A stretch of 64,000 bases of DNA from Kitasatospora arboriphila (lineage in GTDB: Bacteria > Actinomycetota > Actinomycetes > Mycobacteriales > Mycobacteriaceae), in assembly GCF_000717275.1 (NCBI RefSeq), contig NZ_JNYV01000011.1, positions 132,035-196,034 of the forward strand. The letters run 5' to 3'. The notes beneath the pieces are model-generated. The model did not search any database and had not been told where the DNA came from. It was given only the letters and a program-made list of their open reading frames with translations. How positions within the stretch are numbered: the first letter of the stretch is position 1; each line of letters opens with the position of its first letter. A program made the translations under genes and the position numbers. Positions 1,750-52,365 of the stretch are shown one piece after another.

Positions 1750-2741
1750 CTGCGTTCCTTTCGGACGAGCCAGATCAGGTACGGCGCACCCAGTGACGCG
1801 GTGACGGCCCCGACCGGGAGGCCGGTGACCGCCGGGCCACTCCCAGGCAGATCGAGTGTGATGCTGAAGGCAAGGAGATCCGCGGCCGACAGAGCGATTG
1901 CCCCGAGCACCATGCTGACGGGTATCAGATCCCGGTAGTCGCCGCCGACGAGGATGCGTGCCAGATGTGGTGCCATCAACCCGATGAACGCCACCGCGCC
2001 GGCTGCCGTGACGGCCGCTGCGGCCGCGAGCACCGCGACCATCAGCAGCACGAAACGGGTTCGCGCCGTGCGCAATCCCAGACCTGTGGCGGTGATGTCG
2101 CCGAGCGAGAGGACATTGACCCGCGAGGATGCGAGCAGAGCACACACCCCGAGTACGAGGACCCAGGGCCACAGGGCATTCCAATCGGACTGCGTACGCG
2201 CGTTGAGTGACCCGATGAGCCATCGGAGCACCACGCCCATCGGCTGCGCGTCGACGACGAGCAGCAACGAGGTGACTGCGCCGAGGATGGCACCCAGCAG
2301 GATTCCCGCGACCGCGAGCGACCGTCGGCCGACCAGGTACAGCAAGACACCGGCGGCGACTGCACCGACCAACGACGCGATGGCTGCCATGTCCTGGTGT
2401 GGGAACGCGAGTATGGCCACGACAACACCGAGTGCCGCGCCCGCCCCGACTCCGGTGGTTCCCGGCTCGGCGAGCGGATTACCGATCACGGCTTGCAGCA
2501 GTGCGCCCGAGAGAGCAAGCAGGACACCGGCACCCATGCCGACGAGTACCCGGGGGAGGCGGTACTTGAGGACGATGACCTCGTGTGCGCGGACATCCGA
2601 CGTGCCCGTCAGCACTCGAAAGGTGTCGGCGGCGCCGAGGTCGGAACGCCCGATCATCAGATGCGCCATCACGAGTACGACGAGCACGACCGTGCCGCCG
2701 GCCAGGAGGGGGAGGGGCCGCAGCAGGTTCGGTTCCCTCAT
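1746..2741 (-). CDS. metal-chelate ABC importer permease (FecCD family)
   Basis: A 331-aa integral membrane protein of the FecCD/BtuC family with roughly ten hydrophobic segments. Diagnostic stretches are RLPRVLVGMGAGVLLALSGA, NPLAEPGTTGVGAGAALG, and GLMAPHLARILVGGDYR near the ATPase-contact helix. The ATG at 2741 overlaps the upstream permease stop by four bases, and its own stop overlaps the ATPase start by four bases, indicating translational coupling. Paired with the neighbouring permease it would form the heterodimeric channel for the lipoprotein encoded divergently at 3792. Confidence 0.92.
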   Translation of the reverse strand: MREPNLLRPLPLLAGGTVVLVVLVMAHLMIGRSDLGAADTFRVLTGTSDVRAHEVIVLKYRLPRVLVGMGAGVLLALSGALLQAVIGNPLAEPGTTGVGAGAALGVVVAILAFPHQDMAAIASLVGAVAAGVLLYLVGRRSLAVAGILLGAILGAVTSLLLVVDAQPMGVVLRWLIGSLNARTQSDWNALWPWVLVLGVCALLASSRVNVLSLGDITATGLGLRTARTRFVLLMVAVLAAAAAVTAAGAVAFIGLMAPHLARILVGGDYRDLIPVSMVLGAIALSAADLLAFSITLDLPGSGPAVTGLPVGAVTASLGAPYLIWLVRKERR

Positions 2742-3760
2742 GCCGCCGAGTCCTGGCGGCGTAGTGCGATGAGCAGCGTCGGGACGCCGATCAGGGTGGT
2801 GGTGATACCCACCGGGATCTCGATGGGATACAGCGCAATTCGGGACAGGAGATCGGCTGTGGTGAGCAACGCTGCGCCCGCGACCGGTGTCAGCCAGAAG
2901 ACCCGGCGGGCGCTGGTGGTGCGCAACGCCCACCTGCACAGGTGCGGCGCCAGCAGGGCCACGTACGCCACCGGGCCGCACACGCAAGCGACAACCGCCG
3001 CCAGGACGCCGGCGCACCCGAGCGCCGACAACCGTGCACGGAACACGTTGATGCCCAAGCCCGCTGCAACATCATCGCCGAGCGACAGCGCTGCCACGCG
3101 GTGCCGTAAGAACAGGGCTGCCGGTACGGGGACAGCGAGCCAGGGAGCGACCACTGCGACGTGCGGCCAGCCGCGATCGCTGAGGCTTCCCAGGAGATAG
3201 CGGAACAGCAATGGCAGGTTGCCCTCGGTGCCCAGGCTCACGAGCGCGATCACGAGTCCAGACGCCAACGCGGTGACCGCCGAGCCGATCAGCAGCATCG
3301 TGGTGGGGTCGTGGGTTTTTCCCACTGCCACGAGCACCGTCGAGCCGGCCACTGCGGCGCCGAGCAGGGCGACGTACGGCAGCTGGTGCAGTCCCACCGG
3401 CAGCGCGAGCACGGTCACCGCGGTCAACACCACGGCAGCGCCCGAGGACACGCCCAGGAGTTCGGGGCCGGCGATGCGGTTCTGCATCGCGTCCTGCATC
3501 AAGATGCCCGCCAGGCCGAGGGCGGCCCCGCACATCACGCCGAGCAGTGCTCGTGGCAACCGGGAATCCGCCACGTAGGGGTGAAGGGGATCGGACGCGT
3601 CGGTGAGTGCGGCGAAAGCCTCGAGTGGCGTCACCACCGGGTCTCCGGCGCACAGGGCGACCACCACCACGGCTGCCATCGCGGCCGTACCCAGCAGCAA
3701 CGAGCCGATGAGCCGTCGGTTGGGTCGCCTCTGGGCAGTCGTATTGACAATGGTTATCAT
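2738..3760 (-). CDS. metal-chelate ABC importer permease (FecCD family)
   Basis: A 340-aa FecCD-family permease and the first gene of the minus-strand importer operon. Family features include SRLPRALLGVMCGAALGLAG, the NRIAGPELLGVSSGAAV loop, and LLAPHLCRWALRTTS before the last helices. The start is uncertain: ATG 3760 lies inside the Zur-like palindrome, while ATGs at 3772 and 3775 are also in frame; none has a strong ribosome site. The gene is divergent from the lipoprotein gene, and the shared 31-bp intergenic space holds the palindrome, so both importer halves are probably co-regulated. Confidence 0.9.
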   Translation of the reverse strand: MITIVNTTAQRRPNRRLIGSLLLGTAAMAAVVVVALCAGDPVVTPLEAFAALTDASDPLHPYVADSRLPRALLGVMCGAALGLAGILMQDAMQNRIAGPELLGVSSGAAVVLTAVTVLALPVGLHQLPYVALLGAAVAGSTVLVAVGKTHDPTTMLLIGSAVTALASGLVIALVSLGTEGNLPLLFRYLLGSLSDRGWPHVAVVAPWLAVPVPAALFLRHRVAALSLGDDVAAGLGINVFRARLSALGCAGVLAAVVACVCGPVAYVALLAPHLCRWALRTTSARRVFWLTPVAGAALLTTADLLSRIALYPIEIPVGITTTLIGVPTLLIALRRQDSAA

Positions 3761-3762
3761 TT
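3744..3762. promoter_or_regulatory. Zur-like operator 1 (importer divergent promoter)
   Basis: TTGACAATGGTTATCATTT contains TGACAATGGTTATCA, which fits the actinobacterial Zur pattern TGANAATNATTNTCA with one mismatch. It sits between the permease operon and the divergent binding-protein gene. TTGACA within it could serve as a -35 element. It does not resemble the TTAGG-type IdeR boxes elsewhere in the window. Confidence 0.7.
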
Positions 3763-3791
3763 CGCTCAACATCATCTGCAAGGGAGATCGA

Positions 3792-4727
3792 ATGCGCAAG
3801 TCCATCGCTCTGTCCACCACTCGAGGCCTCGTCGCGGCCGCATCGGCATTGGCGTTACTGGGGGCGGCAGCCTGCGGCGCCGACGGTGACGAGCCGGCCG
3901 CGGAGTCGATCGTCGTGACCGACGCAACCGGCACCACGGTCACCCTGGCGGGCCCGGCCGACCGAATCGCCTGTCTGACAATGATCTGCGTCGACGCTCT
4001 CAAGGAAGTGGGGATCACCCCCGTCGCTTACCGGGAGGATCTGGCCCTCGATGAGCGGTTCTTCGGACCCGACGCGGACATGCGAAAGATCACCGGCGGC
4101 TTCGGTGAGGAGAACGTAGAAGACATCGCCATGTCCGAGCCCGACCTGGTCATCGGGCTCGGTGGCGTACAAGACGGGCTGCGAGCAGCTGTCGAGGAGT
4201 CCGCGCCGTTGTATCTGGTCGATCCGTCTTCATGGCAGGACTCGGTCGAGTTCTTGCGCACCGTAGGGCAATTGACGGGCAAGCAGGCAGAGGCGGACGC
4301 TGCGGCCCAATCGTTTGTCGAGCGCGTCGAAACCGCGCGCCAGAAGCGCAGTGACCTCACCACGTTGTCGATGTACGGGGAGCCGGGCAGTCTCGGTGTC
4401 GACTCCGTCGAGACGCCGGTCGGTTCGCTTCTTGCCGAGGTCAGTGAGTACCCATGGCCGGCGGGTACCGACGCCTTCGCAACCGTGTCGGTTGAGCAGA
4501 TCGCCGGCGTCAACCCCGATGTCATCTTCGCGCAGGCATTTTCGTCCGGCGATGACGCGGAACCGCTGTCGGCGAGACTGGCGACGAATCCGATCTGGCC
4601 CTCGGTCGCGGCAGCGCAGAACAACCGCGTGGTCGAGGTGGAGGCGAGCCTGTGGGCCACCGGCCGCGGGACCGTCTCGTTGGGCTTTGTTCTCGATGAG
4701 GTGACGGGCGAGTTGGCAAAGTCCTGA
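3792..4727 (+). CDS. metal-chelate ABC importer substrate-binding lipoprotein (FecB/TroA superfamily)
   Basis: A 311-aa lipoprotein. MRKSIALSTTRG is followed by a hydrophobic segment and the lipobox LLGAAAC, with the lipidated Cys at about residue 31. The body has the PeriplasmicBP_2 layout of chelate-binding proteins: VTDATGTTVTLAGPADRIAC, EPDLVIGLGG, INPDVI-like VNPDVIFAQ, and a long central helix. It lacks the His-rich loop of ZnuA-type free-zinc binders, so it should bind a complexed metal. The ATG at 3792 has an AAGGGAG ribosome site. It is divergent from its permease/ATPase operon across Zur-like operator 1 and directly precedes the RiPP operon, whose product is the obvious candidate ligand (inference). 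Confidence 0.88.
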   Translation: MRKSIALSTTRGLVAAASALALLGAAACGADGDEPAAESIVVTDATGTTVTLAGPADRIACLTMICVDALKEVGITPVAYREDLALDERFFGPDADMRKITGGFGEENVEDIAMSEPDLVIGLGGVQDGLRAAVEESAPLYLVDPSSWQDSVEFLRTVGQLTGKQAEADAAAQSFVERVETARQKRSDLTTLSMYGEPGSLGVDSVETPVGSLLAEVSEYPWPAGTDAFATVSVEQIAGVNPDVIFAQAFSSGDDAEPLSARLATNPIWPSVAAAQNNRVVEVEASLWATGRGTVSLGFVLDEVTGELAKS

Positions 4728-4745
4728 CGAATGGCGCCCACGCTA

Positions 4746-4764
4746 TTGAAAATGATTGTCAAAT
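4746..4764. promoter_or_regulatory. Zur-like operator 2 (RiPP operon)
   Basis: TTGAAAATGATTGTCAAAT contains TGAAAATGATTGTCA, an exact fit to TGANAATNATTNTCA and one base from the textbook actinobacterial Zur box TGAAAATGATTTTCA. TTGAAA (4746-4751) and TAGCGT (4769-4774), 17 bases apart, could form the promoter, so a bound repressor would occlude it. The precursor-peptide gene starts 83 bases further on. Confidence 0.78.
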
Positions 4765-4846
4765 AGCCTAGCGTGAGTCCTGGCCGTTCGATGAGCGACC
4801 GATTCGGTTGCGATGCAGCTGAATTCACTACAAGCGAAGGAGATTC

Positions 4847-4969
4847 GTGAACGACAATGAGTTCTTCCGTTCCATCCAGGCGCCGGTGAGCCTGGCGACC
4901 CATTCCGCGGGCCACAGCAATGCGCTCGTCGAGAACCCGTTCGACGACGCACAGGATTCCGAGGACTGA
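4847..4969 (+). CDS. candidate azole-RiPP (TOMM) precursor peptide, 40 aa
   Basis: A 40-codon frame from GTG 4847 to TGA 4967-4969, preceded by a strong GAAGGAG ribosome site (4836-4842). The peptide begins MNDNEFFRSIQAPVSLA, continues with THSAGHSN at residues 18-25, and ends in an acidic tail NPFDDAQDSED. It has no Cys; Ser15, Thr18, Ser20 and Ser24 are candidate sites for azol(in)e formation, and His19 and His23 alternate with them, which would suit metal binding. It lies between Zur-like operator 2 and the modification genes, as precursors usually do. Whether the acidic tail is core or a C-terminal recognition segment is unknown. I recognise no family; the call rests on position, ribosome site and composition. 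Confidence 0.68.
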   Translation: MNDNEFFRSIQAPVSLATHSAGHSNALVENPFDDAQDSED

Positions 4970-5000
4970 TAGGTCCTCGCATCACCTGATGTGTCAAGAG

Positions 5001-5040
5001 CCCGCGTGCCATTCGAGTGACGTCCCGGGTGGCACGCGGG
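5001..5040 (+). terminator. GC-rich hairpin between precursor and enzyme genes
   Basis: CCCGCGTGCCA (5001-5011) and TGGCACGCGGG (5030-5040) form a perfect 11-bp stem with an 18-base loop. No T-run follows. Placed 32 bases after the precursor stop and 21 bases before the next start, it could act as a partial terminator or processing/stabilising element, raising precursor mRNA over enzyme mRNA as in other RiPP operons. Confidence 0.6.
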
Positions 5041-5061
5041 ACCGGATGAGAAGCGAGACCC

Positions 5062-5775
5062 GTGCAGCTGTCCCCGAATACCGCCATATATCAAGCACAT
5101 CAGGGCTTTGTCCTGCGCACCGCCGACGACGAGCACTTCGAACTCACTCTGGGTGGTGACGAGGTGCACGAGCTCTTGTCGGTGCTGTCCGGCGATGCAT
5201 CACCTGCCTCGAGCAGGGTCCGTGCCGCCCTGGGCGCGTTGGTCGACGCAGGTCACGTGGTCACCACCGTGTCGCGGCCCACCGTGGCAGTGCGTGGGCA
5301 GGGCAAGATCGCGGGTGCGACCTCGAAGAGGCTGGGAGCGCGCGTATCCGGTGAAAGCGCGAGCGCTGACGTCGTCTGTCACGTCAGCGACGATCCCGTT
5401 GATCCGGCCCAGATCGGCGCCGTGGACCTGGCCAGCTATCGCGACGGGATCATCCAGGTCATCACGCCGCAGGCGGTCGGTGTCGCGGACGTGGTCGGCC
5501 GGCGTCGTGCCTGCGCCATCCATCGTGACCGGATGCAGTCGCATCACCGACCGGTTGACGGCGGGCTGCGGCTGGAGTCGACCCTGCATCCGGTGTCTGA
5601 TCGGGCAGCTGATGTGATCGCAGACCTCATCGTCACCGAGATCGACGAGCGACAGGGTCGGTCGATGACCGAGTCGCCGACAAGCCGTTCACAGCATCTG
5701 CTGACCACTGTCGACCTACGCACCCTGCGGATTGTCCGGCGACCTGTGTTGCCCATTCCCGCTGTGCCGCAATGA
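5062..5775 (+). CDS. short TOMM leader-binding/ThiF-like cyclodehydratase partner
   Basis: A 237-aa protein starting at GTG 5062 with a GAGAAGCGAG ribosome region. Residues about 5-70 look like a PqqD-type winged-helix RiPP recognition element (FVLRTADDEHFELTLGGDEV followed by a short helix pair and LVDAGHVV). The rest matches the reduced ThiF-like partner of TOMM YcaO enzymes, including GIIQVITPQAVG and the terminal strand TTVDLRTLRIVRR. It is much shorter than typical partners. The terminal zinc-ligand pattern (usually HPxCxC) is replaced by PIPAVPQ, and only one Cys (RRRACAIHRD) remains in the middle segment. It should bind the precursor and present it to the YcaO protein. Its stop overlaps the next start (ATGA). 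Confidence 0.68.
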   Translation: MQLSPNTAIYQAHQGFVLRTADDEHFELTLGGDEVHELLSVLSGDASPASSRVRAALGALVDAGHVVTTVSRPTVAVRGQGKIAGATSKRLGARVSGESASADVVCHVSDDPVDPAQIGAVDLASYRDGIIQVITPQAVGVADVVGRRRACAIHRDRMQSHHRPVDGGLRLESTLHPVSDRAADVIADLIVTEIDERQGRSMTESPTSRSQHLLTTVDLRTLRIVRRPVLPIPAVPQ

Positions 5776-7109
5776 CTTGTTCGCTGACCGATACCCAGGT
5801 CGACGGACTTCACACAAGTGTTCTCCTGCCGGACACCGCGCCGAGGTCTGTCCTCATCATCCGCACGCCCTACGATGCCGCCGCCTATCGGGCGGAAGCG
5901 CACGCGTGGGTTCGTCGGGGAATCGCGGTGGTCACCCAGGATGTCCGGGGACGGCACCGGTCCCGCGGCCGTTTTCGGCCGTTCGAGAACGAGGGGGCCG
6001 ATGGGCTCGCGACCCTGCAGTGGGTTGCGAGCCGATCGTGGGCCGGCGCGCCGGTGATCCTGTACGGCACGTCGTACTCCGCGCACTGCGCGGTGGAGAC
6101 GGCGATCGCCGCGGCAGAGACGGGGGTCGACGTCGGCGGGGTGTCTTTGGCGGTTCCCGCGCTCGGTCTCGGTGAGACGGCACGCAACATCGATGGATGC
6201 TTCTATCTGCAGTCGAGGGTGGGCTGGTGGCTCGAACACGGAGAAGGACCCGAATCGCCCGGCGCCGCAATCCCTGACGGCCTGCTCGACACGCTGCCGG
6301 TGGCCGACATCGGTCGCCGCGTCACACCGCCGATCTCAGGGTGGGAGAGAGTGATCCGGGCCGAGCGTCTAGATCGTGAACGCGGTGCCGAGGTTTCACG
6401 GCTGCGCTGTCCGTTGCTTGCCGTCGGTGGCATGGCGGATTGGTTTGCGCAGGACACTGTCGACCTCTGGACGTCCTGGGGTGGCCCGGCGGCGCTGGTC
6501 ATGGGTCCCTGGGACCACAGTCTGCGCGGCTCCGACCGAGCCCGCCGCATGGAGTCGTGGATTGATGACGTGTGTGCCGGCACCCCCACAACCGGCGCGC
6601 AGGTGCTCGGTCTCCCTGGAGGAACGGTTGACCTGACCCGGTGGCCGAGCACCGAGGCGTCCACTGTTCTGCCAGGCGGGCGATTTCACGCCGACCCCAC
6701 CGATCCCTTCCCTTCGATGGCTCACGGGGCAGACCTCAGCGAGGCGGCCGCGCGGCCGGATTGCCTTGTTCTCGACCTGCCGAACCGTTCTGCCGCACTC
6801 GTCGGAACACCCACTGTGCGAGTGCATCCGACTCACGGTGCCGGCCACTGGGGCGCTCTGCTCGCCATCCGGCGCCGCGACGGTCGACTCGAACAGACGG
6901 CGCACGGTATGTCCACGCACACGACGATCCACCTCACCCCGGTGGCCGCCCACCTCGACACAGGAGAATCGATGGTCCTCATCCTCTCGGCGCATTCCTT
7001 CCCCCGCTACGCGCGGGATCTCCAGTCGCGCAACGACCACCTCGCCGGCACCGAAACGCGTGCCGTCCTTCGCGAGGTCGAGTCCGTGACGTTGGACATG
7101 CCGGCATGA
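5772..7109 (+). CDS. S15/CocE-NonD family alpha/beta hydrolase, RiPP-operon encoded
   Basis: A 445-aa protein with the X-Pro dipeptidyl-peptidase/CocE fold. The nucleophile motif GTSYS places Ser at about residue 101; the Asp lies in GGMADWFAQDT and the His in GPWDHS. A C-terminal jelly-roll-like region ends with LILSAHSFPRYARDLQ, a CocE hallmark. It is shorter than the usual 550-600 aa. It overlaps both neighbours by four bases in the tightly coupled operon. A plausible role is leader or follower removal, or terminal trimming or hydrolysis of the modified peptide; an esterase or amidase on a side group is the alternative. No signal peptide is evident, so it acts in the cytoplasm. Confidence 0.8.
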   Translation: MTCSLTDTQVDGLHTSVLLPDTAPRSVLIIRTPYDAAAYRAEAHAWVRRGIAVVTQDVRGRHRSRGRFRPFENEGADGLATLQWVASRSWAGAPVILYGTSYSAHCAVETAIAAAETGVDVGGVSLAVPALGLGETARNIDGCFYLQSRVGWWLEHGEGPESPGAAIPDGLLDTLPVADIGRRVTPPISGWERVIRAERLDRERGAEVSRLRCPLLAVGGMADWFAQDTVDLWTSWGGPAALVMGPWDHSLRGSDRARRMESWIDDVCAGTPTTGAQVLGLPGGTVDLTRWPSTEASTVLPGGRFHADPTDPFPSMAHGADLSEAAARPDCLVLDLPNRSAALVGTPTVRVHPTHGAGHWGALLAIRRRDGRLEQTAHGMSTHTTIHLTPVAAHLDTGESMVLILSAHSFPRYARDLQSRNDHLAGTETRAVLREVESVTLDMPA

Positions 7110-8488
7110 ACCCGGCTGCGGCAGAACCGAACACATCAACCGTCCTGTCGGCCGAGGACCTGATCGATCCGTACGCCGGCGTCATCCGTGCCTTGCACCC
7201 CGTGGATCGGCTCGACGCGATGCCCGAACGGTATGTGGGACTGACCGCCGAGATCGCCGACACCAGAACGCATGGGAACTGGCCGAGTGACCTGGTGTCC
7301 CTCGGAACCACCTTCGCCGACGAGCCGGGTGCCCGTATCGCGGCGATCGGCGAAGCCGTCGAGCGGTACTGCGGCAATTACGTGCCGAAAGACCTGCTGC
7401 GGGCGACATCTCGGGAGTTACGCAGCGTGGGCGTGCGCCATCTGGGGCCCGATGAACTGAACTTCTTCGCCGAGTGGCAACTCGAGACGCCGAGATTCCC
7501 GTTCGAGCGGTTCACCCATGACACGGTGATCGCCTGGTGTGCGGGCCGCGGTGACGACGGAGAACCGACGCTGGTGCCTGCGTCCTACGTCTATCTCAAC
7601 TGGCGAACCGGCACCCGTAAGCGCGACCCGTGGCTACACCATCTGAACTACGCGGGCATCGCCACCGGAGCAGGCCTGGACGACGCCGCCGCCCGAGGGT
7701 TGCTCGAACTCGTGGAACGGGACTCACTGTCGTTGTGGTGGCATCTGAACCTGCCCGCCCGCGGTATCGACATCGGTAGCGTGCCAGGGCTGGCCGACGA
7801 CCTCGGTGACACGCGATTACGTTGTCACCTGCTCGAATTGCCCGCATACTTCGGTGTCCCGGTGGTCGCTGCGGTGATCCACGACCCGGAACTGGGCATC
7901 GTGGCGGGGGGTTTCTCCGCCAAGCTCGACCCGGCCGAGACCGCCCGGAAGGCGGTACTCGAAGCCATTCACAGCTGGGTGTTCACGCGGGGCCTGCTGG
8001 AGCCCGACGGCTGGGTGTTCGGCTCCATGGAGGCCGGGGTGCTCTCCCGCGGGTTGTATCTGGACCATCGGGCGGACCGCAGCTACCTCGATGCCGCCGG
8101 TGTGCGGAGTGAGCATGTCCGCGATCTCGGGGCGCAGGCGCAGGTGTGGCTGGATCCGCTGACGCAGGAAGCGTTGCTGCCGCGCTTCACCGAACCGGCC
8201 ACCACGGTGGGTATCGACGAACTGCCCACCGGCGACCTCTCGGATCTCGAGCACCGACTGCGAGCCGCCGGCCACCAGGTCGTTGTCTGCGACATCACCA
8301 CGCCCGACATCGCATTGACGCCGCTGCGGGTGGCGAGGGTGTGCGCCGCCGGGTTGATCCCGAACGCCCCGGCGGGGTTCCCCTACTTCGGTCTGCCGCG
8401 GTGGCGGGAGATCGCGCGCGCAGAGGCGACGGGCTGCGATCCGGATGACCCGAACTCGTTGCTGCTGGTGGCCCCTCCGAGCTTATGA
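7106..8488 (+). CDS. YcaO-domain cyclodehydratase (TOMM azoline synthetase)
   Basis: A 460-aa YcaO protein. The ATP-binding signatures are visible: ARIAAIGEAVERYC at about residues 77-89 and GLLELVERDSLSLWWH near residue 200, followed by AGGFSAKLDPAETARKAVLE. YcaO proteins of this class phosphorylate backbone amides to form oxazolines or thiazolines at Ser/Thr/Cys. The precursor has Ser and Thr only, so oxazol(in)es are expected. The ATG at 7106 overlaps the hydrolase stop (ATGA) and is preferred over the longer open frame upstream. The C-terminus reads LLLVAPPSL rather than the PxPxP tail common in azoline-forming YcaOs, so a different backbone modification cannot be excluded. Confidence 0.87.
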   Translation: MNPAAAEPNTSTVLSAEDLIDPYAGVIRALHPVDRLDAMPERYVGLTAEIADTRTHGNWPSDLVSLGTTFADEPGARIAAIGEAVERYCGNYVPKDLLRATSRELRSVGVRHLGPDELNFFAEWQLETPRFPFERFTHDTVIAWCAGRGDDGEPTLVPASYVYLNWRTGTRKRDPWLHHLNYAGIATGAGLDDAAARGLLELVERDSLSLWWHLNLPARGIDIGSVPGLADDLGDTRLRCHLLELPAYFGVPVVAAVIHDPELGIVAGGFSAKLDPAETARKAVLEAIHSWVFTRGLLEPDGWVFGSMEAGVLSRGLYLDHRADRSYLDAAGVRSEHVRDLGAQAQVWLDPLTQEALLPRFTEPATTVGIDELPTGDLSDLEHRLRAAGHQVVVCDITTPDIALTPLRVARVCAAGLIPNAPAGFPYFGLPRWREIARAEATGCDPDDPNSLLLVAPPSL

Positions 8489-9711
8489 ACCCGTTTCGCA
8501 CATTCGTGGTCGCGCGCGCGATCTGCTGGGCGGGCAACGCCGTCACGCTGGTGGCGCTGCCTCTTCTCGTCTACCAGCAGAGCGGCTCGGCACTGCTGTC
8601 CGGTGTGACGTTTGCCGTCGAGTCGCTGCCCTATCTGCTGTTCGGGCTCTTCGCCGGCGCGGTGGCGGACCGGTTCGACCGCAAGTCCATCCTTGTTGTC
8701 GCCCAGATGCTGAGTGCAGTGGCGCTGGCGTCGATTCCGCTGGCGAATGTCGCTGGGGACGTCCTGATCGTGCACGCCCTTACCGTTGCCTTCCTCGTGT
8801 CCACGCTGTTCGTGTTCTACGATGCGGCGTCGTTCGGGGTGGTGCCCGCTCTGGTCGGGCGGGACCGGATAGCCGACGCCACAGGAACATTGGTGTCCGT
8901 GGGTACCGTCATCGGGATTGCCGGACCGTTGCTGGGTGGTGTGGCGGCCACTGCGCTCAGTCCCGCCGGTGCGATCGCGATCGATGCATGCTGCTATCTG
9001 TCTGCGGCGGCACTCACCGCCACCATCGCGATTCCCCCGAACGCCGTCGAAGCCGTTCCGGGCCGTCGTATCTCGGACCAGATAGGTGAGGGGTTGCGGT
9101 ACATCTGGCAGCAGCCGGTGGTGCGCGCATTGACTCTGGTGGGAATCGGTGTGAGCCTCGCCAACGGCGTGGTGGTCGGACTGATGGTGGTGGTGGGTGT
9201 CCGGCGACTGGGCCTGGGTGACGGCGACGCCCGACTGGGTGCTTTGTATGCGGCCACCGCGCTGGGGGCGTTCCTCATCAGCCTCGTCAGCGCAAAGATC
9301 CAGCGTGTCGTGGACACCGGGAAGATCACCCTCACCGGAATCGCCGTGTCCGCCGGGGCGATGCTGCTGTGGGCACAGACGCCCTGGTTTGTCGTCTCGC
9401 TGGTGACCCTGGTTGTGTACCAGGCTGCCAACACGATGATCATCGTCAACGGAATCGTTGTGCGGCAATCGATCACGCCCGACGAGTTGCAGTCGCGGGT
9501 GAATACGACGGCGCGAATGATCGCCATGGGCGGTACGCCGTTCGGCGCTGCGATGGGTGGGGCGGTGGCGCAGGTCGGCGGTGTCGGTGTGGCGGTGTCC
9601 GCCGGCGCGGTTGCCCTGCTGTGTTCAGCCTTCGTCGGCTGGCGGATGGGGGTCGCCCGCCTGCCGCTGCTCGTCGACCTCACACCGAGCGCCCACGGCA
9701 AAGGCGAGTAG
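8485..9711 (+). CDS. MFS transporter (EntS-like), putative RiPP exporter
   Basis: A 408-aa protein with about twelve hydrophobic segments. The MFS motif A appears after the second helix as GAVADRFDRKSIL. The closest general type is the MFS_3/EntS group of siderophore and drug exporters. It is the last gene of the coupled operon (ATGA overlap with the YcaO gene), so export of the modified peptide is the likely job. Its 3' end overlaps the convergent SagB-type gene by 87 bases, which is long for a convergent pair but both termini are well supported. Confidence 0.86.
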   Translation: MNPFRTFVVARAICWAGNAVTLVALPLLVYQQSGSALLSGVTFAVESLPYLLFGLFAGAVADRFDRKSILVVAQMLSAVALASIPLANVAGDVLIVHALTVAFLVSTLFVFYDAASFGVVPALVGRDRIADATGTLVSVGTVIGIAGPLLGGVAATALSPAGAIAIDACCYLSAAALTATIAIPPNAVEAVPGRRISDQIGEGLRYIWQQPVVRALTLVGIGVSLANGVVVGLMVVVGVRRLGLGDGDARLGALYAATALGAFLISLVSAKIQRVVDTGKITLTGIAVSAGAMLLWAQTPWFVVSLVTLVVYQAANTMIIVNGIVVRQSITPDELQSRVNTTARMIAMGGTPFGAAMGGAVAQVGGVGVAVSAGAVALLCSAFVGWRMGVARLPLLVDLTPSAHGKGE

Positions 9712-10401
9712 TGGGACCTGGCTGCGCTGCAACGAGAGCATCTCGCTGATCTGGTTGTCATAGAACCCGGATATCGCACAGCAGGCGAGGTCGAGTGCGG
9801 TGGCGATGAGGTACAGGTGTGCTGCAGCGAAGCCGGCATCGACATGCAAGGTGCGATAGTGCCGCTCGGAATATTTGGTCAGTGTCGCGTCGAGTTCACC
9901 GACGAGAATGACGACAACCGGAGCGCGTCGGGCGAACTGCGGTTGAACGAGACCCTGTGCGAGTGCGCCGCGTACATCGCCTGTTCTGCGCCGGAGCAAC
10001 CGGTGGTGGACGCGGTCGAACTCGTACACACCCACGGGTATCTCGTCGAGTGTTTGCAGCGCAACCACGTAAGCGGTGGTCGACGGTAGGCCACCGGCGC
10101 TGGGATGGAAAGTCAACAAGCGCTCCTCGCCGTCGCCGGTTCGCACGGTGCGCTGTGGACCTAGCGCCCACCGCAGCAACGCCGACAGGTCTGGGTGGCC
10201 GAGCGGGCCGTAGCTGTACCGCGAGCGCCGGTCGCGGAGGACGCCGTCGATCGGAACCGATGGCGCGTCGGAGGGTTCACTCAGCGTGATCACCCCGTCG
10301 CCCTCGGACAGCCGGATCGGCGACACGGGAGGGCCCGAGTCGGTGAGGGCATCGTGGACTGCCCGTGCGCGCTCGACTCTTGTACCCACCAGACCATCCA
10401 T
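9625..10401 (-). CDS. SagB-type FMN dehydrogenase (azoline oxidase)
   Basis: A 258-aa nitroreductase-fold protein of the SagB/McbC/ThcOx group. Visible features are DRRSRYSYGPLGHPDLSALL, FHPSAGGLPSTTAYVVAL, GVYEFDRVHHRLL, and FAAAHLYLIATALDLACCAI before the FMN-contact segment. These enzymes oxidise azolines to azoles, completing the cyclodehydratase-partner-dehydrogenase set. The ATG at 10401 is 11 bases from Zur-like operator 3 and has no clear ribosome site, so translation may be leaderless. It is transcribed towards the RiPP operon rather than with it, and shares its operator with the L36 gene. Confidence 0.87.
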   Translation of the reverse strand: MDGLVGTRVERARAVHDALTDSGPPVSPIRLSEGDGVITLSEPSDAPSVPIDGVLRDRRSRYSYGPLGHPDLSALLRWALGPQRTVRTGDGEERLLTFHPSAGGLPSTTAYVVALQTLDEIPVGVYEFDRVHHRLLRRRTGDVRGALAQGLVQPQFARRAPVVVILVGELDATLTKYSERHYRTLHVDAGFAAAHLYLIATALDLACCAISGFYDNQISEMLSLQRSQVPLLAFAVGARCEVDEQRQAGDPHPPADEG

Positions 10402-10411
10402 GGCATGTAGT

Positions 10412-10434
10412 CTAATGACAACGATTGTCATTAG
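10412..10434. promoter_or_regulatory. Zur-like operator 3 (sagB/rpmJ divergent promoter)
   Basis: A perfect 10-bp inverted repeat, CTAATGACAA and TTGTCATTAG, separated by CGA. The inner TGACAACGATTGTCA fits TGANAATNATTNTCA with one mismatch. TTGTCA (10425-10430) and TAGTGT (10448-10453), 17 bases apart, could be the L36 promoter, so Zur binding would block it. Confidence 0.78.
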
Positions 10435-10528
10435 TTCGCCGGGCAGGTAGTGTCCTGAATGCACCGAAAGCCGGTCGCGTATAAGGCGCGCAGCAGGACA
10501 CCCTGCCGCGCATGGACATTGGAGCACC

Positions 10529-10651
10529 GTGAAGGTCCGTGCATCACTCAAGTCGTTGAAGAACCAGCCCGGCTCGCAGGTCGTGCGCCGTCGCGGCAAG
10601 ATCTTTGTGATCAACAAGGGGAACCCGCGGTTCAAGGCCCGGCAGGGGTAG
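10529..10651 (+). CDS. rpmJ: 50S ribosomal protein L36, zinc-independent (C-minus) paralogue
   Basis: A 40-aa ribosomal L36 from GTG 10529 to TAG 10649-10651, with GGAG just upstream. The sequence starts [19 protein letters not shown] and ends NPRFKARQG, the pattern of the YkgO/RpmJ2 type. The four zinc ligands of canonical L36 (CxxC...C...H) are absent. Such C-minus paralogues are produced when zinc is scarce and are usually Zur-repressed, freeing zinc from ribosomes. The Zur-like palindrome upstream agrees. This gene is the strongest contextual evidence that the neighbouring RiPP/importer genes answer to zinc. Confidence 0.93.
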
Positions 10652-21190: not shown

Positions 21191-22537
21191 ATGACCACCG
21201 ATGAGGAGAGTGCTCCGTTCGATGTGGTGGGCGTCGGTTTCGGACCGGCGAACCTCGCGCTGGCGATCGCGATCGAGGAGTACAACGACCGGGCCCGTCC
21301 GGCAGACCGCCTGACGGCGAAGTTCGTGGAGAAACAGCAGCGGTTCGGCTGGCACCGGGGCATGTTGATCCCCGGCACCACGATGCAGATCTCGTTCCTC
21401 AAAGACCTTGCCACCCAACGGGACGTCTGCAGTCCCTACTCATTCCTGAAGTACCTGTCCGAGCGTGGCAGGCTGACGGACTTCATCAACCAGCAGAGCT
21501 TCTTTCCCACCCGGCTCGAGTTCCACGACTACCTCGAATGGGCGGCCGCCAAGGTGACGCTGCCCATCGCCTACGGGACCGAGGTCAGCTCGGTGAACTG
21601 GACCGGCGACGTGTTCGAGGTCCAGGTGCCGGGTTCGGTTCCGGTGCGCGGGCACAACGTGGTCCTCGCCGGCGGCCTGCGTTCCAAGGTGCCCGCGGGT
21701 GTCACGCAGAGCGCGCGTGTGTTCCACAACCACCGCTTGCTCGAGCACCTCCGGGAACTGCCGCGCATGCGCCACCAGAGACTGATCGTGGTGGGTGCCG
21801 GACAGAGTGCTGCAGAGGTGGCCGCTTATCTGCACGAGACGTATCCGGAATCCGAGATCCATGCGGTCTTCGGTAAATACGGGTACACGCCTGCCGACGA
21901 CAGTCCCTACGCCAACCGGATCTTCGATCCGGACGCTGTTGTCGACTTCCATCAGTCGTCCGACGAACTCCGCGCGCAACTGCTCAGCTATCACCGTGGA
22001 ACCAACTATTCGGCAGTGGATCCACCGCTGATCGAGGAACTGTACCGCCGCGAGTACGGGGAGCGGGTGTCAGGGCGCCGGAGGTTGTTCGTACGCGGTG
22101 CGTCGGAGGTCAGCTCGCTGGTCGAGACGGATGACGGAGTAGCCGTGCAGATCCGGCATCGACCGTCGCAGGGCGTCGACGAGTTCAGCTGTGACGCAGT
22201 CATCTTCGCGACAGGTTTCGAACCGGTCAGTCTCGCCGAGCTGCTCGGCCCGCTGGCAGCGGCCTGCGATGTGGACGACAAGGGTCGCCCCGTCGTGGAC
22301 CGTCAATACCGGGTGACCACCAGCGGACGCATCAAGGGCGGGATCTACCTGCAAGGCAACACCGAGCACACCCACGGCCTCACGTCGACCCTGCTGTCGA
22401 ACCTGGCAGTGCGTTCGGGAGAGCTGGTGGACTCGATCGTCGCCTCGGTCAGGCGAACCGAGGCGGAGGCCACCGTCCACATCACTTCTGAATCGAGCGA
22501 GCAGAGAGAAGGCGACTTTGTCTACCAACCCCTTTGA
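21191..22537 (+). CDS. L-ornithine N5-monooxygenase (SidA/PvdA family)
   Basis: A 448-aa flavin monooxygenase. The FAD motif [14 protein letters not shown] is at about residues 15-28, [19 protein letters not shown] [15 protein letters not shown] near 65-80, the NADPH motif [14 protein letters not shown] near 202-215, and ATGFEPVSL near 343. Such enzymes make N5-hydroxyornithine for hydroxamate siderophores. The ATG at 21191 has an AGGAGG-type site at 21177-21182 (ggaggag). The formyltransferase at 45391 would act on its product, and the small NRPS has a formyl-hydroxyornithine code. Lysine is a possible but less likely substrate. Confidence 0.9.
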
Positions 22538-44267: not shown

Positions 44268-44323
44268 AAGACCTATTGATGAACACTCCGGAACATCTCC
44301 GGAGCAAGAATGGAGAACTGACA

Positions 44324-45292
44324 ATGAAGAAATCTCGAAGACTGCGGCTGTGGGCGTTGTTGGCCGCGCTGCCACTGCTTTTTGTGGTCCTGCTGACCGG
44401 ATGCTCGGACGATTCCGACAAAGATTCGGCCTCGGGCGAGACCCGCACGGTGGAATCCGTCGACGGTCCTGTCGAGATCCCGACCGACCCTCAGCGCATC
44501 GTGGCGTTGCGTGGCTCGGCAGAAGCGCTGCTCAGCCTCGGTAGCGACAAGGTCGTCGGCGTACCGGATCTCTACACGGCCGACTATTTCGGCAACGACA
44601 CGGCCGCTTGGGAGAAGTACCAGAGCCTGCCCAAGGTCGGCACCATCTCGCAACCGGATTATGAGGCGATTCTCGCGCTCGAGCCCGACCTCATCGTCGG
44701 CAACGTTCTCGAAAAGCATTGGGAAGCAATCGACAAGGAGAAGCTGAAGGCCATCGCGCCGGTCGTGAACCTCGAGGGCGGGTCATTGCTGGTCACCGAC
44801 TGGTACGAGACCTTCGACGAGGCGGCCGACATCGCGGGCATGAAGTCCGAGGCCGAGGAGCAGAAGAAGCAGTTCCACGCACGCGCCGACGAGATCCACC
44901 AGAAGTACGCCGACAAGATTGACGGCACCAAGTTCGTCGCGGTTGCCTCGTGGTCACCGGGCACCTTCTGGGATCAGAACGCCGGAACGTATGTGCCACA
45001 CAAGCTCGAGGCCGCGGGTCTGACCTTCCCCACGGGCGAGGGACAGGAACGTTCGTATGAGCAGCTGGGAATGCTCAACGACTACGATGTGATCGTCTAC
45101 CCGACCCGCGCAGACGGGTCCACCACACCTGAGGTGCAGGCGATGCTCGACTCCGAGCTGTTCAAGAGTCTGCCCGCAGTACAGGCCGGACGGGTTCTGG
45201 CTGTGGCATACACGGATCCGTTCACCTACGCATCCGGAATGGCCAGCCTGGACAGTTTGGAAGCGCAGTTGGAAAAGCTCCCGCAGAAGTGA
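44324..45292 (+). CDS. ferric-siderophore ABC importer substrate-binding lipoprotein
   Basis: A 322-aa lipoprotein of the FepB/FecB group. MKKSRRLRLW precedes a hydrophobic run and the lipobox LLTGC (Cys at about residue 27). Body motifs are VDGPVEIPTDPQRIVAL, ALEPDLIVG and LNDYDVIVYPTR. ATG 44324 has a GGAG site; the open frame upstream to 44276 would put residues before the signal peptide. It follows the NRPS gene by 56 bp with no promoter seen, so it is probably in the same iron-regulated transcript. The nearest FecCD/E genes are at 57.5 kb. Confidence 0.9.
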   Translation: MKKSRRLRLWALLAALPLLFVVLLTGCSDDSDKDSASGETRTVESVDGPVEIPTDPQRIVALRGSAEALLSLGSDKVVGVPDLYTADYFGNDTAAWEKYQSLPKVGTISQPDYEAILALEPDLIVGNVLEKHWEAIDKEKLKAIAPVVNLEGGSLLVTDWYETFDEAADIAGMKSEAEEQKKQFHARADEIHQKYADKIDGTKFVAVASWSPGTFWDQNAGTYVPHKLEAAGLTFPTGEGQERSYEQLGMLNDYDVIVYPTRADGSTTPEVQAMLDSELFKSLPAVQAGRVLAVAYTDPFTYASGMASLDSLEAQLEKLPQK

Positions 45293-46140: not shown

Positions 46141-49100
46141 ATGACGACTTTCGGGCACCCCGGGGATTCGGCCGCGGTCCAGGTGGACATTTCCGAGCTG
46201 CACGAGCGATGGAATGACCGGTCGACACCCACAACCACCGCAACCGTTCCGGAGTTGTTCGCTGCCACAGCCCGATCGACGCCCGATGCGCTTGCTCTCG
46301 TCGATGGGCGTACCCGACTCACGTACCGCGAATTGTCGGTCAAAGTGGGCGAATTGGCGCAATGTCTACGTCAGTCGGGGCTACCCGCCGAGGGTGTGGT
46401 CGCCATCGGTATGTCTCGCTCTGCCGAGATGGTCGTTTCCGTACTGGCCACGATGGCAGCCGGTGGCGCGTTCGTTCCTGTCGACCCGCACTGGCCCGAG
46501 ACCCGTCGACGACAGGTGAGCGCCGACGCATCGGTGAAAATCGCACTGACAGCTGCCGACGACCGCACGGACTGGGGCACGGAGACGGTCTCGGTGAGCC
46601 TGGCCGACTGGCGGTTCGGTGATTGTGTGCCGGATGCGTCCCCGCTCCGCGTGCAGGGGAACCAGTTGGCCTACGTGATCTTCACCTCCGGGTCCACCGG
46701 GACTCCCAAGGGGGCGATGATCCGGCACGAGGCGATCTGCGAACGACTTGTGTGGCAACGTGATCAGATACTGATGTTCGGACGAGACGATGCCTCACTG
46801 TTCAAAGCACCTCTGGCGTTCGACATCTCGATCAACGAGATACTGCTGCCCCTGGTCTCGGGTGGGTACGTGGTGGTGGCGGCGCCCGGAAGTGAAAAGG
46901 ATCCTGACTACCTACTGGATCTGATTGCCTCGGAACGGGTCACCTACCTGTATCTGGTGTCCTCGATGCTCGACACCCTGTTGGCACTGGATCGCGATCG
47001 GTCGACCAGGTCGGAGTCCGCGCTGGCTTCGGTCAGGCACATCTGGTGTGGCGGAGAGGTTCTGACACCTGATCTCTTCATGCGATTCCGGCAGCAGTTG
47101 TCCACCACGCTCTATCACGGCTACGGACCGGCTGAAGCGACGATCGGCGTATCGCACGTCATCTACCGCGACGAGGCCGAGAGAATCGCCACCTCAATCG
47201 GTCGTCCCAATCCGCACACCCAGTTGTATGTGCTTGACGAGCAGCTCGAGCCGGTTCCGGTGGGCGTGGGCGGTGAGCTCTATGCTGCCGGATTCCTGCT
47301 CGGCCGTGGATATGTCGGCAACGCCGCGATGACTGCGTCGAAGTTCGTGTCCAATCCGTTCGACCCCGACGGCTCACGGATGTACCGCACGGGCGACCTG
47401 GCCCGCTGGTGCGACAACGGTTCGCTGGAGTTTCTCGGCCGAGCGGACAACCAGGTGAAGATCCGCGGGAGGCGGGTCGAACTCGAAGAGATCGAGGTGA
47501 TCATCTCCGGCCACCCGCAGGTGCGACAGGCGGTGGTGACACTGACGGGCACTACCGCCGGCGCCGACAGTCTGTCGGCCTATGTGACCGAGAACCCGGG
47601 CGCCACAGTGGATGTGGAGAACCTACAGTCCTGGTGCGTCGACAATCTTCCCGACTACATGGTGCCGTCGAACCTGATGGTCCTGGACGCTTTCCCCATC
47701 ACCGCCAACGGCAAGGTGGACCGCCGCGGGCTGCCTTCGATGACCGCCACCCGGCAAGGCGCGTTCATCGCGCCGCGTACACCCCACGAACAGCTCCTGT
47801 GCGACATCTTCGCGACAATTCTCGGGGTGGAGAAGGTCAGCGTCGACGACGACTTCTTCGCTCTGGGCGGAGACAGCATCGTGGCGGTCAAGGTTGCCCT
47901 GGCGCTGCGGCCGGAGGGATTCAGGCTCCGCTCACAGGACATCGTCTCTCACCGCACGCCCGAACATCTGGCCACTGCACTCACAGCGTCGGGGCCGGCG
48001 ACGACAGTCCCGACAACCGACGTGCCTCTTGTCGAACTCGAGGACGACGAGTCGGACGAGATCCATTCCCAGGTCGATGGTTTGCGTGAGGTGCTGCCGC
48101 TGACGGCCGTCCAATCCGGCATCTACTTCCATTCGATCGCGGTGGATGATCACGACCCCTACATGGTTCAGCAGATCGTCGAGTTGTCCGGGCCACTCGA
48201 TGTCGACAGGCTCGCCGAGGCCGCAGACGTGGTGATCCGCCGCCATACGGCACTGGCGGCGGGCTTTCGCACCACGCGGTCGGGCCGGGTCGTCTCGACC
48301 GTGGGGTCGACGCCCCCACCGGAGTTCCGGACGTTGAGTTCTGTTGATGAATCGACTCTGGAGACAACGCAATTCGTGGACAGGGTTGCGTCTGAGGAAC
48401 GCAGCCGCAAGTTCGATCTCACTCGACCGCCGCTGATGCGCTACACCCTGATCACCATCGGGGAGGGGCGGTACCGGCTCATCCAGACGGTGCACCATCT
48501 GATCGCCGACGGTTGGTCGGTGGCACTGATCTGGAACGACGTCATGGCTGCATATCGCGGCGAGCCGCTCGACTCCAGCGCACCGCAATTCAGCGACTTC
48601 CTGAGGTGGTGGACGCAGGGGCGAACCCCACAGAGCGAGGTGGAAGCGTGGAAGAACCACCTCGCCGACATCGGAGATCCGACACTGATCTCCGACCACC
48701 TGCCGCGCAGTGCGGGCAATGGCTTCGGTCGGCGCCGCCGTACGCTGGGGTCCGATCACCGGCAGGCCCTGACGGCGTACGCCCGATCGCGATCGGTCAG
48801 CGAGGGTGCCGTGATGACCGCGGCATGGGGTGTTCTGCTGGGCTGCGTCACGGGTCGGACCGATGTGGTGTTCGGTTCCACCACAGCGGGTCGTGGCGAA
48901 GATGTGGACGGCATCGAGCGGATCGTCGGGATGCTGCTGAACACCGTGCCCACCAGGGTGCGCTGGACCCAGCGCGACACCATGGACGACGTGGTCCAGA
49001 ACTTCGTCCGCGCGGAGACCGAAGTACTCGACCACCAACACGTTCCGCTCCTGGACCTCCATTCGGCGTTGGGTGTTCGCGAGTTGTTCGACACCCTGTT

Positions 49101-52100
49101 CTCGATCGAGAACCTCGAACGTCCCGACGATGTCGGCGATCTGCGACTCGGGGCCATCGAGTACATCCAGGCCCCTCACTACCGGTTGACTGCGCTGGTC
49201 ACACTGCACGAGTCGGTGTCGGTGGCGTTGACCAACGACCGGGCGGCAATCGACGATTCGGTGGCAGACCGGCTCGCGGATCTCTACCTCGGTGTCGTGG
49301 AGCTGATCGTCACCGGATCCGACCGCGGTACCAACGCCTTTCGTGCGATCACCGCGACGTCCCCGCTTGACCATCGCACCGTGGTGGGCACCTGGAACCC
49401 GCCATCGAAGGCCACGGAACTGGACTCGGTGGCTCAGCTCATCGAACGTCGGATCGTCGAGTCGACAGAGCTGGTGGCTCTGGTTCAGGGTGACGTCAAC
49501 GTCACCTACGGTCAGCTGGGAGAGCGGGTCAACCGATTGGCGCGCTTGCTGATCGAGTCGGGCGTCGGCCCGGAGGCACGGGTGGCGTTGCTCCTCCCGC
49601 GCTCGCCCGATCTGGTCACCGCACTGCTGGCCGTGATCGTTGCCGGTGGCGCCTATGTCCCGATCGATCCACGTCATCCGACCGAGCGGATCAGCCATCA
49701 CCTGAGCGACTCGTCCCCCACCGTGGTCCTGTCCACCGAGGCAATGGCGGTGACGCTTCGGACGGCCGGCGTCGACGTCCCGGGTGAGCTGATCTGTCTG
49801 GACGACGCCGCGATCAACGGCCGGGTGTCAGCCTTGGCGGCTGGCCCTGTTTTCGCGTCCGAGCGGCGAACCGAGCTGCGCGGGGATCACGCCGCCTACG
49901 TCATCTACACCTCGGGGTCGACCGGCAACGCCAAGGCCGTGGTGGGATCTCACGCCGGGTTGGTCAATCGCCTCGAATGGTCGAAGGCGAGTTGGACCGA
50001 CGGCAACAGGCCCCTCGGAGGTGTCCGGCTCGCCAAGAGTTCGATCGGCTTCATCGACGGGTCCACCGAGATCTTGGGTGCGCTGTTGGCCGGATGTCGG
50101 TTGGTGATCGCCGACGAATCCGAGTCGAACGACGCGGATCGCCTGGCGGACCTGGTGCAGAGTCACGGCATCACCCAACTTACGGGGGTGCCGACCCTGC
50201 TGCGGGCCGTCGCCGAAGTGGGGGCGGAACGGATCGGTGTTGTCCGGCAATGGATCTGCAGCGGTGAGGCGTTGTCTTCAGCTGTCGTCGACGAGATAAA
50301 CCGGGCATCATCGGGTGCAACGGTGATCAACTCGTACGGTTCCTCCGAGGTGGCCGGTGACGTCGCGTTCTCCTCGCGATCCGCTGCGATCGCCGGACCC
50401 ATCACCATCGGCGCACCTGTGCCGGGGAGCCAGATCTATCTGCTCGACCCCTGGCTACGTCCGGTGTCACCTGGAGTGACCGGGGAGTTGTACGTAGGCG
50501 GGGCGCAGGTGGCCCGAGGCTATGCCGATCGGTGGGCCCTGACTGCTGCCACGTTCGTGGCAGACCCTTTCGGCCCGGCAGGCACCCGGCTGTACCGAAC
50601 CGGCGATCTGGCCCGCTGGACCACAGACGGCTCGCTGCAGTATCTGGGCCGCCGCGACTTCCAGGTGAAGGTGAACGGCGTCCGCGTCGAACTCGAGGAG
50701 GTCGAAGCCGCGCTCGCCGCTGTACCCGGTGTGGCCGCGGCCGCTGCCACGGTTCACGAATCGGGCGAGTCGAGCCGGCTGGTGGGCTATGTGACGGCGG
50801 CAGAGGGCGCGCACCTGGACGGCCGGACGGTTCGCGACGCGGTGACCGCTGTTCTGCCCGTGCACGTTGTACCGATCGTGCTCGTCGTCGACGCCCTACC
50901 TCTCACGCCTACCGGGAAGGTCGACCGAAAGGCGCTGCCGACACCCGATTTCAGTTCACTGACCACAGCATCGCGCGAGCCCCGTGGCGCCGCCGAGGAG
51001 ATCTTGGTGTCGGCATTCGCAGAGGCGCTGGGGCTGCCCACGGTCGGTGTCGACGACGACTTCTTCGACCTGGGAGGCGACAGCATCTCCTCGATCGCGG
51101 TGGTTCGGCGGGCCGGACAGCGCGGTCTGGACCTCACCATCGGTGACGTGTTCGCGCTGCGTGCGCCGGCGCGATTGGCAGAGGGGCGAACCGTGGCGCC
51201 CGACGAGTCGACCAAGTCGTCCGTGCGACCAGAGCCCGTGCCGGTGGTTCCCCCGGTTGAGCAACATCGGCTCCGTCAGTCCGGTCTCGACATCGAGCAG
51301 CACGTCCTCACCGAGGTCGTCGATCTGCCGCAGCCTGTGGAGTTCGCGCAGTTGGTGTCGGCGGTCGACACGGTGCTCCGCGAGTCCGATTGCCTGCGGT
51401 GGCGGGTGAACCCACGTCACCGATTGCTGTGGAACACCGACGCACTCCCGTACGCAGACCGTCTGGCATCGGAAAGTGTTGCGACGCTGGACCAGTCCGG
51501 TACGGACGCCGAAGGCGCTGTCAGAACAGCGCGTGACCAGGTGGTCGAGCGGGTGGACATCACGGCAGGACGGCCACTGCATGTCGCACTCCTGCGGTCT
51601 TCGCAGGGCACCCACCTCATCGTGGCCGTACACGGGGTGGTCGCAGACCGGCACACCGTCCACCAGGTGACAAATCGCTTGACCGCACTGCTGGACGGAT
51701 CCGACTCCGGTGCGCCGACCCTGGGGTCCACCGCGGACGCAACGGCTGCGTTGGCCGAACGTGCGCAGTCTGCCGATGCCGATGCCGCACTGGCTGATTC
51801 CATCGATCTGCTGCTCGCCATACCGCCGGCCGACGACGTGGACGGAGACATTGACAGAGACGCTGGGCTCGTCGTACGTGTCGAGAAGCTGTCCGGTCAC
51901 ATGGACGGGTCTGCCGAATCAGTGGAGGCCGCCTTCATCGCCGCCATCGCGCATGGGACGAAGGCCGTACGCACGGTTGACCTCGAATGGAACCTGCGAA
52001 ACCATCTGTACGGGAACGACGTTCATCCCGACGCACACGACGGACTGCCGGGTGCGTTCACCGCCGTGTACCCGGTGCAGCCGGGGATCAACGGGTTCGA

Positions 52101-52365
52101 ACGGCCACCGTATGCGCCCTGGTACGACTTGTGGCGCTTCCAGCACAGCGTCGGACGCAAGAAGTTGCGGCGGGCACCCACTGCAGGAGTGCTGCTGACC
52201 CGCATCTTCGGTCCACTCGCCGATCCCGCTCGGCGGGAGGGCTTCGAGGCCCTTTACGGGGTGGTCGGCCGGTATGCGATCCACGGGGATCGCCTGGAAT
52301 TACATGTTCTGGCCCCGGACGCCGCCGAGGTGGCGGACCGCTGGGCCGCCGCCCTGAACCCGTGA
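46141..52365 (+). CDS. siderophore NRPS: A-T-C-A-T-E* (formyl-hydroxyornithine, beta-Ala-like)
   Basis: A 2074-aa synthetase with no leading condensation domain and no thioesterase. A1 1-520 ([10 protein letters not shown] near 181) has the hand-read code DINYWGGIGK, identical to the N5-formyl-N5-hydroxyornithine code of coelichelin synthetase. T1 is GGDSI near 577. C is about 645-1090 with HHLIADGWS at 785. A2 about 1100-1600 has code IDTTISSGDK, beta-Ala-like; its core A3 motif is altered ([10 protein letters not shown]). T2 is GGDSI near 1645. The last 370 residues resemble an epimerisation domain but HHxxxDG is replaced by [10 protein letters not shown], so it should be inactive. The fhOrn-beta-Ala order matches the start of exochelin. 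ATG 46141 follows an IdeR-like box directly. Confidence 0.92.

Follow-up and report, generated by a model that had tools for sequence, protein, structure and literature searches.

The stretch analysed here (the window) comprises 64,000 nucleotides of Kitasatospora arboriphila DNA (assembly GCF_000717275.1), corresponding to positions 132035–196034 of contig 11 (NZ_JNYV01000011.1) in a 5.75-Mb genome. Analysis of its left end revealed a gene cluster which, judged by its coding sequences, is a streptamidine-family (ami) cluster for a ribosomally synthesised and post-translationally modified peptide (RiPP), with a differing layout and with three predicted boxes for the zinc repressor Zur. The reverse strand carries an amiF4-like gene for a FecE-type ABC ATPase (964–1749; PF00005, 113 bits; FecE was the closest NCBIfam model at 315.9 bits, under its cut-off of 375) and two FecCD permease genes, one amiF3-like (1746–2741; PF01032, 244.5 bits) and one amiF2-like (2738–3760; PF01032, 239.9 bits). 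After box 1, the forward strand encodes an amiF1-like siderophore-type binding lipoprotein (3792–4727; PF01497, 68 bits) and, beyond box 2, the 40-amino acid precursor peptide amiA (4847–4969), which scored 54.7 bits against NF040714, 'streptamidine family RiPP' (cut-off 40). The predicted core, THSAGH (4898–4915), was aligned with the streptamidine core HLSATH and its border is putative. A predicted RNA hairpin (5001–5040, forward strand) separates amiA from amiB (5062–5775), which is followed on the same strand by amiC (5772–7109), encoding an S15/CocE hydrolase (PF02129, 93.2 bits), and amiD (7106–8488), encoding a YcaO protein (PF02624, 166.2 bits; TIGR03604, 215.3 bits, just below the cut-off of 219.25). 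The next gene (8485–9711, forward strand) encodes a putative major facilitator superfamily (MFS) exporter in place of amiT1–T2 (PF05977, 89.3 bits, cut-off 27); it scored 175 bits against TIGR00900 and 108 bits against the EntS model, both under the cut-offs. It overlaps convergently with the 3′ end of an amiE-like SagB-type dehydrogenase gene on the reverse strand (9625–10401; TIGR03605, 109 bits, cut-off 78.4). Box 3 and a gene for ribosomal protein L36 (10529–10651, forward strand) complete the order.

The preliminary description of this DNA had proposed an azole-RiPP gene set next to an importer, and box and profile searches of the window confirmed that the genes and the three palindromes are real. 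The precursor, YcaO protein, SagB-type dehydrogenase, hydrolase, MFS protein and importer were all recovered; the partner protein AmiB fell below all family cut-offs (best TIGR03882, 14.5 bits, cut-off 36.9) and is TruD/McbB-like by its structure model only. That model (mean predicted local distance difference test score, pLDDT, 86.5) matched the heterocyclases 4v1v (E 5.2e-7) and TruD (4bs9, 9.8e-7) and the McbBCD complex (6gri, 1.4e-6) in Foldseek with template modelling (TM) scores of only 0.36–0.45, which indicates a match by parts and agrees with a published TruD-like call (PMC8442711). For comparison between loci, amiB was taken as the longest open reading frame (ORF) between amiA and amiC, with doubtful frames in L037, L047 and L057, and 23 sequences were aligned. 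The region between amiA and amiB (4970–5061) had a fold energy of −44.1 kcal/mol (z −3.84; 1 of 200 shuffles equally stable), and its hairpin may set precursor against enzyme levels.

The streptamidine family was described in 2021 by Russell et al. with 237 precursors in 57 genera and a role called unknown; the major layout in that paper consists of amiF1–F4 (FecBCDE-like), amiA, amiB (TruD-like according to Phyre2), the amiC hydrolase, the amiD YcaO gene, the amiE dehydrogenase and amiT1–T2 (PMC8442711). The window shares with it the precursor follower SNALVENPF, amiB, amiC, amiD, amiE and the FecBCDE importer, which makes it a motif A ami cluster. It differs from the published ami clusters in its divergent importer genes, in a dehydrogenase gene that closes the cluster and runs the other way, in the core THSAGH, in an L36 neighbour and in an MFS gene in the position of amiT1–T2; the latter two ABC transporter genes belong to the S. 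albidoflavus-type layout, a sub-layout that does not define the family. The cluster type is already known, and the new element is a family-wide Zur operator. The window YcaO showed 97% identity to that of Williamsia sp. D3, and a near-identical locus was present in two Williamsia muralis genomes (L016 and L017).

Box 1 (3745–3759; 1 mismatch to TGANAATNATTNTCA) separates the divergently transcribed genes for the permease and the binding protein and overlaps the permease start, box 2 (4747–4761; 0 mismatches) lies upstream of the precursor gene, and box 3 (10416–10430; 1 mismatch) lies between the dehydrogenase and L36 genes. The dehydrogenase probably starts near 10401; an alternative start at 10431 is possible and would overlap box 3. 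Box 2 is a full fit to the Zur motif from chromatin immunoprecipitation (ChIP-chip) in S. coelicolor, tGaNNatSatNNtCa (PMC5472717), from which boxes 1 and 3 depart at one position each. In M. smegmatis the Zur-regulated rpmB has the predicted box TGAAAACGATTGTCA (PMC7174638). Four sites with up to 2 mismatches were found in the window, against 0.36 expected from shuffles; the fourth, at 17091 (2 mismatches), is inside an ABC-transporter gene and was taken as chance. The whole genome held 9 sites with up to 1 mismatch, 3 of them in the window, and 55 with up to 2 mismatches against 6 for the reversed pattern.

A YcaO scan from a 22-sequence alignment yielded 393 relatives, of which the best 80 were kept, so that near kin weigh most; about 50 of these loci were from Streptomyces. 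A precursor with the motif ALVE[NS]PF was found at 77 of the 80 and not at L052, L082 and L086, which were dropped, leaving 78 readable loci with the window included. Within the 270 bp scanned upstream of the precursor, the pattern occurred at 72 of the 78 loci with up to 2 mismatches (41 with up to 1), and near the amiF1 binding-protein gene at 55 of 68 loci with up to 2. Each of the 18 genera held at least one locus with a precursor box at this threshold. The reversed pattern was found upstream of the precursor at none of the 78 loci, and 28 other sites were found in 1.6 Mb of locus sequence, two or three of which adjoin the dehydrogenase gene in Williamsia. The S. coelicolor motif fitted fully upstream of 32 of the 78 precursors and with up to 1 mismatch upstream of 62, compared with 0.06 of 78 in mononucleotide shuffles. 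With one representative per genus, identity was 78% in the box and 31% in the flanks (in an alignment anchored on the box). A control with 200 permuted palindromes gave a mean of 3.69 and a maximum of 72 of 78, some permutations being equal or nearly equal to the original; weight was placed instead on the reversed pattern, the remaining loci and the shuffles.

In a separate draw of genomes from the class, NF040714 was found in 19 of 394 genomes (the present one included) and 10 of 138 genera. Twenty loci were tried and 19 were readable, with the window locus and second matches within one precursor uncounted; the S. coelicolor motif with up to 2 mismatches was present at 16 of these 19 and the reverse motif at none. 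These genomes may overlap with the named genomes of the other counts. One genome (G139, 3.5 Mb) carried three identical precursors, each with YcaO and hydrolase genes (L128, L129 and L130), and a box at two of them. The precursor boxes, the fit to the S. coelicolor motif and the sites at zinc genes described below strongly support the Zur control proposed in the preliminary description; taken by itself, and as far as sequence can tell, such control of the locus is very highly probable.

The same pattern was present at other genes. Two of the six other sites with up to 1 mismatch in the genome lie at zinc-homeostasis genes. One is at aztD (443 bits, cut-off 400); the other belongs to an arsR-fur pair (L005), a candidate zur locus of this genome, which is arranged like smtB-zur in M. 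smegmatis (PMC7174638). Three 1-mismatch sites (L003, L004 and L006) had no evident zinc gene adjoining. A further 1-mismatch box (L007, 1501–1515; contig 9, 112427) is upstream of a gene for a Cys-containing L31-like protein, not a Cys-free paralogue; this gene has a rho-like gene on one side and a release-factor-like gene on the other. In four other genomes with an ami cluster (Streptomyces, Saccharopolyspora, Nocardioides and Rhodococcus), 18 sites with up to 1 mismatch were found, and none with the reversed pattern. At five of their 13 non-ami sites the neighbouring genes encode zinc-homeostasis proteins: ZigA/CobW, MRF with L28, type B L36, AztA/AztB and a ZnuA/AztC-like protein. MRF, L28, L36, AztA and AztB scored above the model cut-offs, and the ZigA and ZnuA-like assignments below. 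Taking all five genomes together, an evident zinc-homeostasis gene stands next to 7 of the 19 non-ami sites. Additionally, a region of the present genome (L134, 4091–8106; contig 2, about 1.077–1.081 Mb) had two 2-mismatch boxes at genes that, by sequence reading, encode a second FecBCD-like importer and a methyltransferase-like protein; it is reminiscent of the Zur-regulated MSMEG_6049–6055 region.

An alternative is that the locus is an iron siderophore system whose boxes are iron-type Fur sites or non-functional. The FecBCDE annotation, an iron-siderophore-like non-ribosomal peptide synthetase (NRPS) cluster downstream and the Fur-family protein beside ArsR, which scored higher against Fur than Zur models and reached no family cut-off, speak for it. 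It is nevertheless extremely improbable, given the fit of the boxes to the Streptomyces ChIP motif and to M. smegmatis Zur boxes and their conservation. IdeR-type control of ami was likewise rejected: with an IdeR consensus, the best matches had 8–11 mismatches of 19 at amiA and 7–11 at amiF1, and 7–8 at the closest.

Alignment of the precursors on the follower showed that 82 of 82 cores fit [HT][DNAHL]SA[STG]H, with Ser3, Ala4 and His6 invariant. Every core had exactly two His residues, the other being His1 in 73 and His2, together with Thr1, in 9 (from Williamsia, Rhodococcus, Pimelobacter, Nocardioides and Modestobacter); the His2 cores could reflect a single evolutionary shift. In the class sample, 18 of 19 precursors fit the core pattern, the other being a degenerate copy (L151, genome G746) that scored below the cut-off, had an in-frame TAG and the core HLPASH, and retained a perfect Zur box. 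At four loci (L138, L139, L141 and L149) the core-follower unit occurred twice per precursor, and one peptide could yield two products there.

The streptamidine made from HLSATH contains a six-membered amidine ring and lacks azoles (PMC8442711). Its published mass of 647.3260 was reproduced by calculation for HLSATH less one water, and the same calculation for THSAGH gives [M+H]+ 591.263. As the precursor exceeds the NF040714 cut-off, the product of the window is expected to be an amidine hexapeptide of THSAGH, not an azole. A YcaO-made amidine ring also occurs in klebsazolicin and bottromycin; klebsazolicin additionally bears azoles and blocks translation, an activity that streptamidine lacks (PMC8442711). 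The azole product of the preliminary description, a classical thiazole/oxazole-modified microcin, is suggested by the YcaO protein, the SagB-type dehydrogenase and the TruD-like partner, and by the oxazoline-containing shunt products of an amiE mutant (PMC8442711). It is probably wrong and ranks as very improbable, because the precursor and gene set are of the streptamidine type and the isolated family product is an amidine without azole.

The binding protein AmiF1 retained the motif Cys-x4-Cys-x-Asp (C61, C66 and D68) in 71 of 71 sequences, window included, and both Cys residues were absent from the three solved relatives aligned with it. The AmiF1 model (pLDDT 90.1) had FecB, YfiY and HtsA, which are ferric-citrate or siderophore proteins, as its best solved matches in Foldseek, and ZnuA was not named in the titles of the 50 matches listed; the model thus suggests that the cargo is a metal complex and not bare zinc. 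In the model C61, C66 and D68 sit at a strand end and a helix start. This position presumably lines the cleft of the AmiF1 fold, where the two Cys residues may either form a disulfide or coordinate metal.

From these data the following sequence of events can be proposed. When zinc is plentiful, Zur bound to the three boxes would repress the importer, the precursor and biosynthesis operon, and the dehydrogenase with L36; the boxes suggest that zinc starvation would lift this repression. By homology with the characterised cluster, AmiB would present the precursor to AmiD, and AmiD, AmiC and AmiE would release the core THSAGH and close a six-membered N-terminal amidine. The MFS protein may export the peptide, the two conserved His residues and the amidine end may bind Zn(II) outside the cell, and AmiF1–F4 may return the zinc complex, the last two steps being at odds with published assays. 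We give this whole chain, a Zur-controlled zinc-starvation RiPP that acts as an exported and re-imported zincophore, a probability of about 0.55; the zincophore role already put forward in the preliminary description remains the best functional reading. Whether it holds for the motif A family, as Zur-repressed two-His amidine zincophores re-imported by FecBCDE with a Cys/Cys/Asp protein, the hexapeptide of 2021 being trimmed or incomplete, appears evenly balanced.

Several observations weigh against this reading. According to PMC8442711, streptamidine bound neither zinc nor six other metal ions by liquid chromatography–mass spectrometry and was not positive in the chrome azurol S assay, metal starvation revealed no phenotype of an amiD mutant, deletion of amiF1–F4 abolished production, and laboratory cultures contained substantial streptamidine, where tight Zur repression in zinc-rich medium predicts otherwise. 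A box with up to 2 mismatches was not found at 6 of 78 precursors, 13 of 68 importer genes and 3 of 19 class-sample loci, nor at L128 (the same place as the unreadable L100), and the core of L151 lacks Ser3. No evident zinc-starvation gene could be linked to four of the six non-ami sites in the present genome, and 8 of 13 in the other four genomes were not assigned to a zinc gene (one not retrieved, two covered only in part). Finally, the motif B precursor family (NF040715), present in 4 of 296 genomes, had a box near the precursor in none of its 4 clusters, with one weak site each, more than 4 kb away, in L125 and L126; the Zur claim is therefore confined to motif A streptamidine clusters. 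The isolated compounds were the HLSATH product and its truncated versions, from which, in the authors' view, an oxidised portion may have been lost (PMC8442711); the active molecule may thus be larger. A metal-starvation phenotype could have been masked by redundant zinc uptake.

The missing metal binding also agrees with a Zur-controlled peptide that is not a zincophore, serving as a zinc-starvation signal or acting on competitors or the cell's own proteins, with AmiF1–F4 taking it up or recycling it without metal. The 2021 authors considered metal import and proposed signalling or development as the role (PMC8442711), and the loss of production without amiF1–F4 might reflect feedback from peptide that has been imported. 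The siderophore-type fold and invariant Cys/Cys/Asp of AmiF1, the two His residues in every core examined and the finding of no antibacterial or antifungal activity for streptamidine (PMC8442711) make this rather unlikely. Zinc shortage might also merely switch on a system for a different metal; thiolate and imidazole ligands would suit Co, Ni or Cu as well. This is improbable in that the control sites found are Zur boxes and streptamidine showed no binding of Co, Ni or Cu either (PMC8442711). The conserved Zur operator links the motif A family to a concrete condition, zinc starvation, and thereby to a probable role; should the peptide carry zinc back, it would be a ribosomal zincophore.

Methanobactin is a copper-binding RiPP metallophore that is made, exported and re-imported, with different enzymes and no YcaO; the proposed system resembles it in ribosomal make-export-reimport for a metal and differs in the metal and the enzymes. 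Ethylenediamine disuccinic acid (EDDS) is not a ribosomal peptide. Zur-controlled metallophores with precedent are coelibactin and EDDS in actinomycetes, and pseudopaline (PMC6103462). The window has in common with coelibactin and EDDS that biosynthesis lies under Zur boxes (PMC5472717, PMC6103462), and differs from coelibactin in that the latter is non-ribosomal (PMC3430247). Neither a family-wide Zur operator at ami clusters nor a ribosomal zincophore was found reported in the open-access papers searched, which include few subscription papers and no preprints. The main text of PMC8442711 contains the word 'zinc' once and 'Zur' never, and the five zincophore passages of PMC11278768 concern Cnt-type clusters or are general text.

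The L36 gene beside the cluster encodes the type B, Cys-free form (NF002021, 80.2 bits, cut-off 70), as had been described, and a Cys-containing L36 is encoded elsewhere in the same genome. As part of the pathway it was rejected: a tblastn search of the 80 loci, which could miss divergent 40-amino acid proteins, found an adjoining L36 gene in L016 and L017 only, apart from the window. It is therefore treated as a neighbour that helps to identify the box. In Saccharopolyspora, a separate box (L114) accompanies a type B L36 gene on a contig other than that of ami.

A gene for a siderophore-interacting protein (SIP) adjoins the importer genes (73–951) and, among the 80 loci, was seen only in L016 and L017. 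Further downstream, 19451–55327 resembles an NRPS siderophore cluster with AMP-binding proteins, an aspartate decarboxylase and a SIP-methyltransferase fusion. It also encodes a Lys/Orn monooxygenase (21191–22537), a second FecB-type binding protein (44276–45292), a 2074-amino acid NRPS (46141–52365) and a 6993-amino acid ORF (23286–44267). IdeR-like sites with 5 mismatches were found in the window at 21090 and 57485 (control mean 0.22, maximum 2, in 100 permutations), weakly suggesting iron control of this downstream cluster.

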